A stretch of 45,445 nt of DNA from NCBI GenBank assembly GCA_937872445.1, contig CALMSL010000048.1:1-45445 (forward strand), written 5' to 3'. Positions 939 to 15,060 of the stretch are shown here, piece by piece (the first letter of the stretch is position 1; each line of letters opens with the position of its first letter). Source of the stretch: an uncultured Microbacteriaceae bacterium (lineage in GTDB: Bacteria > Actinomycetota > Actinomycetes > Actinomycetales > Microbacteriaceae). The notes below the pieces were generated by a model. The model was not told the origin of the DNA. It saw only the letters and a program-made list of their open reading frames with translations, and made no database searches. A program made the translations under genes and the position numbers.

Positions 939-1315
939 TGGTGGAGATGGGGGGAATTGAACCCCCGTCCACTGCTGTGGTCATGCGCCTTCTACGGGTG
1001 TAGCCAGTGCAGGCGTTCTACTCGGCTCCGGAATTTGCCACTGGCACCTAATCCGACGAGCCCAGTTTCAGTTCAAGTCCCTCCACGCCCTGAAACACAA
1101 CGTAGAAGCAATCCTCTCTGGATGACGCCAGAAATCCGGGTAGAGAGCATTCCCCGGCCTGACGGACTTCTTATTGCGCTCGCTTAGGCAGCGAGGGCGA
1201 AGTCAGTGCGCTTTGCATTGGCACTTGTTTTTTGCGGGGATCGTTAACGAGATAACCCTGCATCCTCGACCCGCTTCCCACAATCTCGCAGGCAATGTCG
1301 AAACCGATCATCCCC
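939..1315 (-). ncRNA. ssrA: transfer-messenger RNA (tmRNA)
   Basis: Read on the minus strand the gene starts GGGGATGATCGGTTTCGACA and ends with a T-arm (GGTTCAATTCCCCCC) and encoded CCA. The 5' GGGGAUG pairs with 3' CAUCUCC to form the acceptor stem, giving a 377-nt gene. The resume frame lies at 1222-1184 and encodes the tag ANAKRTDFALAA followed by TAA; the ALAA end is the usual degradation signal. The RNA rescues stalled ribosomes together with SmpB. The 3' end of this gene partly recurs at about 2338-2350, next to an insertion element (see findings). Confidence 0.96.
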
Positions 1316-2113: not shown

Positions 2114-2350
2114 GCTTACCTTTCGAATTCCCTCAGATCTTCGATACGCCAGCGCCGTAGGTGCCGCCACATTGAATATAGCGCGTAACAACCCGCTCGG
2201 ACACACTGTTAAAGCAGGAGTGCCTGCGTCGCCGAGGAGGCGGTACTCGTCTGTTGGCCGTGTGGAGTACCGCAACTACACGCGACAGTGATCCGGCTCC
2301 TCCCTGCCTGAAATCAACTGTCTCAGGGCAGGCATGTGTGGAGATGGGGG

Positions 2351-3645
2351 TGTGTGAGTTCAGGACATAGTTGACAGATGAGTCGCGACATCGGTTACAC
2401 CTAGGTAACGTCACGATGGGGCATGTCCAGAGCCCGAGTCATTGTGTTGTCCGTCACCCAGCAGGGAATGAGTGTCGCTGCCGCCGCAGCCCGTTTCGGG
2501 GTGTCACGGCAACACATTTACGTTCTCCTGTCCCGTTACCGACAGGGCGGCATCGAGGCGGTGGAGCCCAGATCCAGGCGACCCAAATCCAACGCGCGCA
2601 GCACAGGCGAAGCGACACGGGCCCGAATCGTGGCGCTCCGCCAGCAGCTGACTGCGGGAGGTCTGGATGCGGGACCGGTCACCATTACCTGGCATCTGGG
2701 TCAGGAAGGCCTGCCGGTTCCCTCGACCTCCACGATTCGCCGCATCCTGCATGCGGCAGGGCTGATCACCCCGGAACCCAGAAAACGACCCAAGTCCTCC
2801 TACATTCGCTTCCAGGCCGATCAACCCAACGAAACCTGGCAATCCGACTTCACCCACTGGGCGCTGGCCGATGGCACCGATGTTGAGATTCTGAACTGGC
2901 TGGATGACCACTCCCGGCTGTTACTGTCGTGCACCGCCCACGAGGTCGTCACCGGCGGCCTCGTCGTAGATACCTTCACCGCCACCATCAACAAATACGG
3001 GCCACCAGCGTCCACGCTCACCGATAACGGACTCGTCTACACGGCCCGATTCCGTGGTTCCCGCAACGCCTTCGAATACCTCTTGGCCAGCCTGGGAATC
3101 CAGCAGAAGAACGGCCACCCCTACCATCCGCAAACCCAAGGCAAAGTCGAACGATTCCACCAAACCCTCAAATACTGGCTCAACAACCGGCCCGCCGCAG
3201 ACACAATCCTCCAGCTGCAACACCAGCTCGACCAGTTCCGCACCATCTACAACGAGCAACGCCCACACCGATCCCTGCCCGGGATCACCCCCGCGCAGGC
3301 CTACAACGCCACCATCAAAGCCACCCCGGCGAGGCGACCGCTCGGCGCCCACTACCGGGTCCGCCACGACACCATCGACCAATTCGGCAAACTCACCCTC
3401 CGCCGCGCCGGCCAACTCCACCACCTTGGCGTCGGCCGAAACCACGCCAGACGTGAAGTCCTCATCCTCGTCGACGAACACGAAGTCACCATCACCGACC
3501 GCGTCACCGGTGAAATCCTCGGCATCTATGACATCAACCCGAACCACAACTACTGGGCCAACAAAACAAAGAAGCCCGGCCGATGGCCGAGCAATTAGTC
3601 AACGATGACGCGACTCATCTGTCAACGATGTCGCGACTCATCACA
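2351..3645 (+). mobile_element. IS481-family insertion sequence, copy 1
   Basis: The element carries one transposase gene and is bounded by TGTG termini. The left end starts TGTGTGAGTT; the right end, read inward on the other strand, starts TGTGATGAGT. After a variable outer part both ends share GTTGACAGATGAGTCGCG at the same distance from the tip (from about position 20 inward), giving imperfect inverted repeats of about 43 bp. The right end holds two tandem copies of a GATGAGTCGCG..CATCGTTGAC unit of about 23 bp, probably transposase binding sites. The right tip lies exactly 1 nt from the CCA end of tRNA-Arg. The left flank does not match the right flank but resembles the tmRNA 3' end. The ends were placed by eye. 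Confidence 0.78.
2423..3598 (+). CDS. IS481-family DDE transposase
   Basis: A 391-residue transposase, apparently intact. The N-terminal helix-turn-helix region (about 1-60: MSVAAAAARFGVSRQHIYVLLSRY) is followed by a second DNA-binding segment and an rve integrase core. The catalytic triad is visible as Asp142 in ETWQSDFTHW, Asp201 in TDNGLVY and Glu243 in GKVERFHQ. The PYHPQTQGKVERF block is typical of the family. The C-terminal region (about 310-391) is a beta-rich tail that carries positively charged residues. The catalytic residues sit at the same positions as in the second transposase at 13755, but the proteins are clearly divergent, so the two elements are related and not recent copies of each other. 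Confidence 0.93.
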   Translation: MSRARVIVLSVTQQGMSVAAAAARFGVSRQHIYVLLSRYRQGGIEAVEPRSRRPKSNARSTGEATRARIVALRQQLTAGGLDAGPVTITWHLGQEGLPVPSTSTIRRILHAAGLITPEPRKRPKSSYIRFQADQPNETWQSDFTHWALADGTDVEILNWLDDHSRLLLSCTAHEVVTGGLVVDTFTATINKYGPPASTLTDNGLVYTARFRGSRNAFEYLLASLGIQQKNGHPYHPQTQGKVERFHQTLKYWLNNRPAADTILQLQHQLDQFRTIYNEQRPHRSLPGITPAQAYNATIKATPARRPLGAHYRVRHDTIDQFGKLTLRRAGQLHHLGVGRNHARREVLILVDEHEVTITDRVTGEILGIYDINPNHNYWANKTKKPGRWPSN

Positions 3646-3646
3646 G

Positions 3647-3722
3647 TGGTGCGCCCGGAGGGATTTGAACCCCCGGCCTATTGATCCGTAGTCAATTGCT
3701 CTATCCGCTGAGCTACGGGCGC
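3647..3722 (-). tRNA. tRNA-Arg (anticodon ACG)
   Basis: The 76-nt gene folds into a standard cloverleaf: acceptor GCGCCCG pairs with CGGGCGC, the D arm contains AGCTCAGCGGATAGAGC, the anticodon stem ATTGA/TCAAT encloses loop CTACGGA with anticodon ACG, and the T arm is GGGGGTTCAAATCCCTC. CCA is encoded. The ACG wobble base is normally deaminated to inosine by TadA. The insertion element at 2351-3645 ends one base beyond the CCA. Confidence 0.97.
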
Positions 3723-3751
3723 AGTCCTGCTGGCCGAAGCCAACCTGAAAA

Positions 3752-4147
3752 CTATACCAGCGGTAGCCCGTCGCCAACGTCGAGCACTTTCAGGTGGCGC
3801 TTCAGCGCGAGAAGGCGATACGAGGTGTCGATGAGCTCCGCGATCTCCCGCCACTCGGTGTTCGGGTCATCCAGCCCGATAGCGAGCCAACCGCTCGGAC
3901 CCCAGTATGGCGGCACCCAGAACCGGTCGTCCTGAAGGAACGCGCGGCGCCCCTCAGCATCCGGCTTAAACACGATCGAGCGGGGGCGATCCATCCCTGA
4001 GCCCACAACGATGAAGATTTTCTTCGCCACCCGAAACGTTGGTCTTCCCCAGGATTGCACCTCGGCAGTCTCCGGATACGCCATACTGATCGCACGCACC
4101 TTCTCGAGATGCGGGTCATTCGGTTCAATGACAAGGGGATGCTCCAC
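3752..4147 (-). CDS. MmcQ/YjbR family DNA-binding-like protein
   Basis: A 131-residue protein with the YjbR (CyaY-like fold) pattern: AISMAYPETAEVQSWGRPTFRVAKKIF early, KPDAEGRRAFLQDDRFWVPPYWGPSGWLAIGLD in the middle and ELIDTSYRLLALKRH at the end. The family is often annotated DNA-binding, but its function is not established. The GTG start at 4147 is favoured over the ATG at 4246: the family begins near here, and TACAGT stands exactly six bases upstream, the layout of a leaderless actinobacterial gene. It is divergent from the sigma factor gene, which shows the same layout. Confidence 0.82.
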   Translation of the reverse strand: MEHPLVIEPNDPHLEKVRAISMAYPETAEVQSWGRPTFRVAKKIFIVVGSGMDRPRSIVFKPDAEGRRAFLQDDRFWVPPYWGPSGWLAIGLDDPNTEWREIAELIDTSYRLLALKRHLKVLDVGDGLPLV

Positions 4148-13666: not shown

Positions 13667-13681
13667 TGGCGGTACCGGTGG
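13667..13681. repeat. 15-bp direct repeat, copy of the tRNA-Ser 3' end (left flank of IS481 copy 2)
   Basis: TGGCGGTACCGGTGG here is identical to 14971-14985, the last 15 nt (including CCA) of tRNA-Ser on the plus strand. It sits directly against the left tip of the insertion element, while the other copy lies 1 nt from the right tip. It is best read as a target-site duplication, though a relic attachment site is possible. Confidence 0.8.
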
Positions 13682-14969
13682 TGTCTGGTTTCTTGACATT
13701 GAGGACAGGTGTCTCCAGACATAGAGGACATTCCCGTTGTCTTCTGGAGGCCCCGTGTCCAAGGCCCGTGTCATTGTCACTGCCGTCATTTTGGAGGGCC
13801 GGCCCAAAGCGGAAGTCGCCCGTGACTATGGTGTCGCCCGCTCCTGGGTTTATACCCTGGTCGAGCGCTACCTGACGGGCGGGTGGGAGGCGATCGAACC
13901 CCGATCCAAACGGCCACTTTCGAATCCGAGACACATCAGCTCCGAACTCGAGTCCGAGATCGTGCAGTTGCGTGGGGAGCTCACCGGGCAGGGTCACGAT
14001 GCCGGAGCCCACACCATCGCCTTCCACCTGAATGGACGCCACGGCGGTAGCCCGGCGGTTTCCACAATCTGGAAAGTTCTCAAACGCAACGGGCTGGTCA
14101 CCCCACAACCCGGGAAGCGTCCCCGTTCCTCCTACTTGCGCTTCCAAGCCGAGTTCCCCAACGAGACCTGGCAATCCGACTTCACCCACTGGCGGCTCAG
14201 CACAGGCGTCGGGGTGGAGATCCTCACCTTCCTCGACGATCACTCCCGACTGGCCCTCTCGATCACCGCCCACCCGGTCGTCACCGGACGGATAGTGGTC
14301 ACCGACTTTCGCCAGAACGTCAATGATTACGGGCCACCAGCGTCCACCCTCACCGACAACGGCCTAGTCTTCACCACCCGGGTCCGAGGCGGCAAGAACG
14401 CGTTCGAGAACGAGCTACGGCTGCTGAACATTACGCAGAAGAACGGCCGCCCCAACCACCCACAAACCCAAGGCAAAGTCGAGAGATTCCAGCAGACGCT
14501 GAAGAAATGGCTCACCGCCCAAACCCCGGCCGACACCATCGAGGACCTGCAGAAACAACTGAACACGTTCCGCAGCTACTACAACACCATCCGGCCCCAC
14601 CGCTCCCTTCAGCGAAGCACCCCCGCACAGGCCTACACCACCGGCACCAAAATCGGCCCCGCCGGCACCGTCGGCGGACACTGGAGAATCCGCGACGACC
14701 GCATCGACGACTCCGGAGTCATCACAATCAGATACAACTCAAAACTGCACCACATCGGCATCGGTCGAGCCCACAAAGGAACCAAAGTCCGCATCCTCAT
14801 CCACGACCAACACATTCGCATCATCAACAAAACCACCGGAAACCTCCTCCGCGAACTCAACCTCAACCCCGACATCGACTACCAGCGACAATGAAAAACG
14901 CCCCCACCAACCGGTGAAGGCGTCCTCAATGTCTCGCGACATCTGTCCTCAATGACTGAAGACATCACA
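13682..14969 (+). mobile_element. IS481-family insertion sequence, copy 2
   Basis: The element starts TGTCTGG and ends, read inward from the right, TGTGATG. Both ends share CATTGAGGACAG starting about 16 bases from the tip, then diverged copies of a unit ending AGACAT.GAGGAC, so each end has two tandem subterminal repeats of about 23 bp. The length is 1288 bp. The right tip is separated by a single base from the CCA of tRNA-Ser, and a 15-bp copy of the tRNA 3' end flanks the left tip. The one transposase gene is intact, so the element may be active. Confidence 0.82.
13755..14894 (+). CDS. IS481-family DDE transposase
   Basis: A 379-residue transposase. The N-terminal helix-turn-helix (RPKAEVARDYGVARSWVYTLVERYL) is followed by the rve core with Asp142 (ETWQSDFTHW), Asp201 (TDNGLVF) and Glu243 (GKVERFQQ). 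The GTG start at 13755 is preferred over the TTG at 13737 because GGAGG lies four bases upstream. It is a homologue of the transposase at 2423, with catalytic residues at the same positions, but differs in many residues and in its inverted-repeat sequence. It is transcribed toward the 3' end of tRNA-Ser. Confidence 0.93.
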   Translation: MSKARVIVTAVILEGRPKAEVARDYGVARSWVYTLVERYLTGGWEAIEPRSKRPLSNPRHISSELESEIVQLRGELTGQGHDAGAHTIAFHLNGRHGGSPAVSTIWKVLKRNGLVTPQPGKRPRSSYLRFQAEFPNETWQSDFTHWRLSTGVGVEILTFLDDHSRLALSITAHPVVTGRIVVTDFRQNVNDYGPPASTLTDNGLVFTTRVRGGKNAFENELRLLNITQKNGRPNHPQTQGKVERFQQTLKKWLTAQTPADTIEDLQKQLNTFRSYYNTIRPHRSLQRSTPAQAYTTGTKIGPAGTVGGHWRIRDDRIDDSGVITIRYNSKLHHIGIGRAHKGTKVRILIHDQHIRIINKTTGNLLRELNLNPDIDYQRQ

Positions 14970-14970
14970 T

Positions 14971-15060
14971 TGGCGGTACCGGTGGGATTTGAACCCACGG
15001 TGGGCGTTAACCCACACAACTTTTCGAGAGTTGCACCTTCGGCCGCTCGGACACGGTACC
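14971..15060 (-). tRNA. tRNA-Ser (anticodon CGA)
   Basis: A 90-nt class II tRNA. Acceptor GGTACCG pairs with CGGTACC, followed by G and encoded CCA. The anticodon stem CAACT/AGTTG encloses CTCGAAA with anticodon CGA. A long variable arm (GTGGGTTAACGCCCAC) and T loop GTTCAAATC are present. Its last 15 bases are repeated at 13667-13681 on the far side of the insertion element. Confidence 0.96.

Follow-up and report, generated by a model that had tools for sequence, protein, structure and literature searches.

The stretch of DNA that we analysed, referred to here as the window, is 45,445 nucleotides long and carries two IS481-family elements, each of which has TGT...ACA ends with inverted repeats and a single transposase gene that fills most of its length (Table 1). 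Open reading frames in other frames, of up to 220 aa, overlap the transposase ORFs. The two transposases are 54% identical to each other, and both score above the NCBIfam IS481 cut-off of 224 bits; a Pfam scan of both found an rve-type core and HTH families, and no Phage_integrase domain. At the right tip of each element the terminal TCACA is followed by one base (G for element 1, T for element 2) and then by the TGG of a tRNA gene. Because both tRNA genes lie on the minus strand, the transposase genes point to the tRNA 3' end. The coordinates and the ARAGORN calls thus agree with the initial annotation, in which both elements ended one base from the CCA of a tRNA gene in the same orientation and chance was considered unlikely. 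Using the tRNA content of genome G047 (45 tRNA genes in 3.56 Mb) in place of the window's own genome, we estimated as ~2.5e-5 the chance that one insertion would land, in a single orientation, on any of four offsets at the 3' end of a tRNA gene.

Table 1. Positions of the two IS481-family elements, their flanks and the associated RNA genes in the window
Feature	Position	Strand	Remarks
First tmRNA gene, unoccupied	939..1315	-	ARAGORN; without an adjoining IS tip
Left flank, element 1	2336..2350		3' end of a second tmRNA gene; remainder absent from the window
IS481-family element 1	2351..3645	+	1295 bp, TGT...ACA ends
Transposase, element 1	2423..3598	+	391 aa; NF033577, 254.8 bits
Intact tRNA-Arg(ACG), at right tip of element 1	3647..3722	-	ARAGORN
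Left target-site duplication, element 2	13667..13681		15 bp, identical to 14971-14985, the tRNA-Ser 3' end
IS481-family element 2	13682..14969	+	1288 bp, TGT...ACA ends; empty site found
Transposase, element 2	13755..14894	+	379 aa, DDE, GTG start assigned; NF033577, 229.3 bits
Extra base between right tip of element 2 and duplicated 15-mer	14970		T
Intact tRNA-Ser(CGA), target of element 2	14971..15060	-	ARAGORN; last 15 bases (14971-14985) are the right duplication copy
T-loop/T-stem motif	14986..14997	-	GATTTGAACCCA (+ strand); adjoins the inner duplication edge; proposed recognition site, from spacing and base preferences

The 15-mer TGGCGGTACCGGTGG is present on both sides of element 2, and the copy at the far tip had been read as a target-site duplication. 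This reading is borne out by a genome of the same genus, G448, which matches the joined flanks of element 2 with one 15-mer over 496 of 496 bases at 99% identity and has a single copy of the 15-mer at its empty Ser site, so the tips of element 2 are correctly placed. The other 59 of the 60 genomes searched gave no match across the whole joined-flank string. The left copy of the 15-mer and the empty site of G448 both have G as the preceding base, and the right side has T; since the empty site has G before TGG, this extra T is left over and is not accounted for by the empty site.

For element 1, no matching duplication was found at its two tips. The possibility of an insertion without a duplication partner was rejected when its left flank, GTGTGGAGATGGGGG, was traced by a pattern search of its own genome, and then in G448, to the 3' end of a second tmRNA gene. 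This gene is intact and free of IS in G448, where the sequence left of the element 1 junction runs into it. Element 1 is therefore a hybrid of two target sites, with a tmRNA left flank, which the initial annotation had missed, and a tRNA-Arg right flank. An element thus entered the tmRNA 3' end, and its right part is now joined to tRNA-Arg, either by recombination or by a joint in the source assembly, which consists of 214 contigs. Recombination is plausible for this join because three copies in the single-contig genome G047 show cyclically exchanged flanks. An element right end also lies at tRNA-Arg in G448, at the start of a contig.

Several further observations concern the tmRNA genes and the other sequences of these genomes. 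In G448, two tmRNA genes that encode the same tag peptide lie in tandem (L224, positions 2333-2706 and 3729-4105); of the second, nothing but the 3' end remains in the window. A further tmRNA gene in the window's own genome (L199, contig C62) has neighbours that resemble those at the window start; it perhaps derives from a second strain in the assembly, for which contamination is 4.63%. The same genome contains a decayed further copy of the element (L003, contig C44), whose left tip is preceded by ATGGTGCCCCTGGAGG, which resembles a tRNA 3' end.

The relatives of these elements were picked by a protein-pattern scan of a genome collection without reference to tRNA, and the best 80 of 212 were kept. 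Right tips were testable in 72 of them, and 70 of the 72 lie at a tRNA 3' end, a tRNA fragment or a stack of elements, as expected if the lineage recognises tRNA 3' ends; homologues scattered at sites away from tRNA genes were not the pattern. The remaining two (L035 and L047) adjoin T-arm-like sequences with no tRNA gene. The best 80 are not all independent by descent, eight of them being loci of Sinomonas sp. ASV486. They comprise 55 elements at an intact tRNA gene, 13 at tRNA 3' remnants (including L078, a tRNA cut by its contig end), one at a remnant cut in the T-loop (L025), one stacked element (L015), the two T-arm-like cases, one that has lost its right end and has a tRNA-Pro-like left flank (L052), and seven at contig ends. 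The suggestion that the tRNA is left intact is thus in line with most of these loci; the gene stays whole because ~15 bp of its 3' end are duplicated. The remnants may themselves have been whole tRNA genes at the time of insertion.

A separate survey of the phylum covered 396 genomes with up to four candidates scored per genome. Within this limit, matches with E <=1e-40 were found in 34 of the genomes (54 matches in total), and tRNA-type elements were counted by hand in 19, the window's own genome included. When the window is excluded, 18 survey elements reach at least 400 bits; 16 of these pass the automatic rule, L123 does so by eye, and one is stacked. Because five cut copies at tRNA genes (L131, L139, L158, L163, and L165) score 156-336 bits, the raw score was replaced as the divider by bits per model position. 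At >=1.15 bits per position over at least 100 positions, 120 elements were obtained, and 109 of the 111 testable ones are at a tRNA gene, a remnant or a stack; the line was drawn after the data had been seen and lies in a gap that spans 1.08 to 1.16. The 120 elements include 83 at intact tRNA genes, 20 at remnants by rule and two by eye, four in stacks (L015, L041, L073, and L126, with L073 classed by inspection), two at T-arm-like sequences, seven at contig ends, and two whose right end is lost (L052 and L136). L136 is a clade member by score, with a left flank of no clear tRNA character. ARAGORN missed the loci whose tRNA genes are truncated; they were recovered by a T-loop rule and compared with the intact tRNA genes of the set, and the sole match to this rule outside the clade (L103) was taken as chance.

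The intact targets at 81 loci are mainly genes for Pro (16), Ser (16), Leu (12), Arg (11), Ala (10), and Met (6), followed by Lys (4), Val (2), and Thr, Tyr, Gly, and Asn (1 each). Phage records yielded two with partial matches, and viral contigs yielded four loci, one of which (L187) is at tRNA-Pro. Among the 50 of 66 plasmid matches listed, one exceeds 36% identity (L191, 51.5%), and it is at a tRNA fragment.

The more distant relatives behave differently. Among 42 elements with 0.3-1.15 bits per position over at least 250 positions, tRNA tips were found in 0 of 39 testable cases; in one, L150, the match ends 348 bases away from a tRNA. The same holds for canonical IS481 elements over the NCBIfam cut-off, which lie partly among these and partly below them in score, with 0 of 16 at tRNA genes by hand count, some of the 16 being near-identical. 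In a tree of 109 rows, 77 rows (the tRNA users and the off-target L035) form one clade with an SH-aLRT of 99, and the rows that adjoin this clade are not at tRNA genes. This was a quick tree with long outgroup branches, thinned from 158 rows and with untestable rows left out; the site label needs three changes on it because two rows labelled as non-users, L047 (T-loop-like) and L052 (right end lost), fall inside the clade. The comparison with other IS481 elements supports the view that the tRNA habit belongs to one clade and not to IS481 at large, which narrows the initial proposal, and on this comparative evidence we regard tRNA 3'-end targeting by this clade as near-certain. The elements of the clade are ~1.27-1.65 kb in size with one transposase gene.

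The insertion geometry is narrow. At 101 loci, under a T-loop spacing rule that admitted 14-20 bases, the terminal ACA and the T-loop border are separated by 15 bases in 56 loci, by 16 in 42, by 17 in two, and by 14 in one. The left duplication copy is exact in 55 of these loci and has one mismatch in eight; the 38 loci without a left copy at 0-1 mismatch include some contig starts, some swapped flanks, and a few that are unaccounted for. The duplication is usually 15-16 bp (14-17 in relatives) and, where found, stops at the T-loop, with the inner cut between tRNA positions 61 and 62 as counted on the printed sites. The 16th duplicated base differs in L002, L042, and L075. A left tip was found in 82 of the 101 loci, and its flank is the element's own duplication in 59, another tRNA end in 13, and neither in 10, while random 15-mers gave 3 matches in 1640 against the same tRNA-end library. 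The count of 10 with neither is too high, since the automatic finder misplaced some left tips (L009 and L061 have exact duplications). A fixed CCA anchor was ruled out, because loci without an encoded CCA, for example L011, show the same spacing. The tRNA 3' end therefore stands as the target, whereas the CCA, which had served as the reference point in the initial annotation, does not; the anchor seems from these spacings to be the T-loop/T-stem, and tmRNA and truncated tRNA genes are also used.

The single-contig genome G047 contains six copies of one element that are 99.4-99.9% identical, one of them frameshifted, and all six are at tRNA 3' ends (Ala-CGC, Ala-GGC, Pro-GGG, Pro-TGG, Ser-CGA, and Ser-GCT). 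The left flanks of three copies are swapped cyclically: the Ala-CGC copy has that of Ser-GCT, the Ser-CGA copy has that of Ala-CGC, and the Ser-GCT copy has that of Ser-CGA. Recombination among the copies would give this arrangement. Stacks of elements, in the order right tip, tRNA-end-like 15-16 bp, and next left tip, were found in L015, L041, L073, L148 (at the position of L126), and L225. In L073 the tRNA end in the middle resembles that at the outer tip, and the stack in L225 matches a tRNA-Ser on another contig (L227). L041 and L148 have different tRNA ends at these two points; stacks therefore do not arise solely from repeated insertion at one tRNA, and exchange between copies contributes. 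These exchanges suggest a class of actinobacterial genome rearrangement with breakpoints between intact tRNA genes.

The AlphaFold2 model of the element 2 transposase (mean pLDDT 84.7, pTM 0.59) has helical N-terminal regions that correspond to Pfam HTH families, an RNase H-like part at residues 138-296, and six C-terminal strands at 310-369, which we read as a barrel. Foldseek matched the model to IstA of IS21, TnsB of ShCAST, retroviral integrases, and MuA, with query TM-scores of ~0.3-0.43. Residues D142, D201, and E243 are invariant in 38 rows, and their role as the DDE triad was assigned from the family. Among related transposases, those of L138, L141, L143, and L096 have open frames of 617-645 aa, and in L096, L141, and L143 a long distance separates the core from the C-terminal match downstream of it, as though an insert had split the two.

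The best explanation, which we consider highly probable, is that this IS481 clade is site-specific for the 3' part of tRNA and tmRNA genes and that the transposase itself reads the T-arm. All the support for this model is comparative. The comparison of loci shows that the right end joins at or beside the CCA end of the tRNA in a single orientation, that the duplicated 14-17 bp reach from the right junction to the T-loop border at tRNA position 61/62, and that a complete tRNA is thereby regenerated next to the element. It also shows that some copies are stacked directly on one another, separated by a tRNA end, and that others have flanks of two different tRNA genes, as would result from recombination among copies. 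We infer that the T-arm is read as double-stranded DNA, with the consensus GGATTYGAACC on the strand toward the 5' end of the gene, and that strand transfer would take place at fixed distances from it. The reader may be the modelled C-terminal beta barrel or one HTH region of the transposase; the C-terminal domain alone does not explain the choice of target, because non-tRNA sister elements match that part of the model too.

Several features bear on what kind of cue is read. The T-loop starts with GATT at 73 of 99 sites as compared to 26 of the 62 tRNA genes in these loci that are unoccupied, although the T-arm base profile involves some circularity, a T-loop pattern having been used to pick the sites. 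In the off-target element L035, an exact 15-bp duplication precedes CCAACCGAACGTGCGAC, which shares CGAACxTGCGAC with T-arms, and there is no tRNA at this place. Taken together with the target range, L035 and the GATT bias point to DNA sequence, rather than folded or transcribed RNA, as the probable cue. The site could instead be read in trans, through the tRNA, through a tRNA-binding or transcription factor, or through an element RNA that pairs with tRNA. Ty3 is a precedent, and the targets here are mostly structured RNA genes (tRNA and tmRNA). V-K CASTs, which work via a guide RNA, are another precedent (PMC11406308). We consider reading in trans improbable, because the T-loop spacing is fixed even in truncated tRNA fragments, an off-target insertion occurred at a T-arm-like sequence without a tRNA gene, T-loops with GATT are preferred among tRNA genes, and many isoacceptors with different acceptor stems are hit.

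That tRNA genes come through the insertion intact would also fit random insertion followed by selection that retains only those copies at safe positions, tRNA 3' flanks among them, but the precision of 1-2 bases in one orientation, the persistence of relatives elsewhere (none of the 39 testable distant relatives and none of the 16 canonical elements is at a tRNA), and the location of all six near-identical copies of one genome at tRNA genes make this very improbable. Equally improbable is carriage of the elements by prophages or by islands that enter tRNA genes through a tyrosine integrase. Such islands rebuild the tRNA 3' end at their junction, whereas here the chemistry is of the DDE type, the 15-16-bp duplication is staggered, and there is no such integrase within the elements. 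Tyrosine integrase genes were found near three of eight remnant loci (L032, L040, and L069) in a scan of 20 selected flanking proteins; however, the duplication borders the IS tips themselves, the empty site lacks only the IS, which excludes such carriage for element 2, and loci with intact tRNA genes outnumber remnants by 55 to 13 in the best 80. Of the 20 remnants, 19 match a tRNA for 21-47 nt, often to the anticodon loop, and L041 does so for only 7; a reach to the anticodon loop is the size of many integrase attachment cores. It is more likely that the IS also hits attachment-site remnants left by islands. Assembly joints at repeats could likewise produce an association with tRNA genes, and element 1 does join two target flanks in a fragmented assembly, but the same pattern is seen in single-contig G047 and in many long contigs, and element 2 has an empty site; assembly joints are excluded as the source of the general pattern, and we give them very little credence, although element 1 by itself may be such a joint.

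Among known systems, the elements share with the IS481 family the transposase family, the TGT...ACA ends, and a similar duplication size. Duplications of 2-15 bp are given for IS481 (PMC10045372), into which the 15 bp of element 2 falls, while the 14-17 bp of its relatives are partly above this range. ISArsp8 is an IS481 member with a 15-bp repeat (PMC6305408); L196, which was taken as the ISArsp8 plasmid element from its plasmid name, is outside the tRNA clade on the tree. The sites named for other members are not tRNA genes, being NCTAGN for ISLxc2 (PMC2516522) and REP sequences for the IS481 element of SBW25 (PMC11708052), according to the available portions of these reports. The word tRNA is absent from the main text, as available, of the IS481 survey cited above (PMC10045372), and no tRNA-specific IS481 element is named in the available portions of PMC2516522, PMC6305408, PMC9208149, PMC11708052, PMC12500396, PMC2909200, and PMC3751702. 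A literature search, with ISFinder, TnPedia, preprints, and most subscription journals outside its scope, retrieved no recognised report of IS481 at tRNA 3' ends.

The closest likeness in behaviour is to the IS1202/ISAjo2 family, which has a lone DDE transposase, TGT ends, and insertion in one orientation at a fixed distance from a short conserved site, but is described as targeting the Xer sites dif and pdif, with a 5-bp duplication and proteins of 441-457 aa (PMC10132070). The right tips in the window lie at tRNA 3' ends and not next to dif or pdif, as judged from tip positions alone. The transposases of elements 1 and 2 score 84.9 and 55.5 bits against ISNCY_2, which we take to be the model of the IS1202 family, below its cut-off of 250. 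Tn7-like transposons and V-K CASTs have TGT/ACA ends as well, and V-K CASTs and some TniQ systems are reported to use tRNA genes as sites (PMC11406308). They choose these sites by TnsD/TniQ or CRISPR RNA, whereas the transposase ORF nearly fills the 1.3-kb elements described here and leaves them with one transposase and none of the TnsB plus TnsC, TniQ or CRISPR parts. Dada elements are DDE transposons that insert in tRNA and snRNA genes, but are described as eukaryotic, with a distantly IS256-like transposase and 6-7-bp duplications (PMC3706591). A site-specific DDE element is thus known as a kind, and the tRNA-aimed IS481 variant appears to be new within the literature searched.

If these comparisons are read as above, the elements present a minimal, one-gene DDE system that locates tRNA genes with base precision, while the prokaryotic DDE systems with tRNA sites described in the available part of PMC11406308 need several proteins or a guide RNA. 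Since the family has lineages with and without the tRNA habit, the residues that set the target can be mapped by comparison or swaps, and the system may provide a compact means of directing DNA to safe sites.

Sister IS481 elements in a genome of the same class (G442; L130, L150, L151, and L152) are located at another shared motif. Where no IS is present, this motif forms inverted pairs 25 bp apart in three places, while pairs ~1.37 kb apart are found around three of the four copies and in one further place; the sister IS therefore seems to interrupt a palindromic repeat exactly in the middle. We can only tentatively propose, and with more doubt than confidence, that the IS481 branch with ~15-bp duplications consists of single-protein site-specific transposons, each lineage with its own small target, and that a short inverted repeat is maybe the common cue. 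If so, the targets would be the T-arm of tRNA and tmRNA genes in the clade studied here and the centre of a palindrome in the G442 sister, each found by a transposase of ~390 residues without TnsC, TniQ, or a guide RNA.

A long perfect hairpin is common in the last ~90 bp before the right tip. Across 96 loci, the mean longest stem in this region is 9.2, as compared to 4.1 in base shuffles, and stems of at least 8 occur in 52% of them. This hairpin could stop transcription that arrives from the transposase side as well as from the tRNA side.
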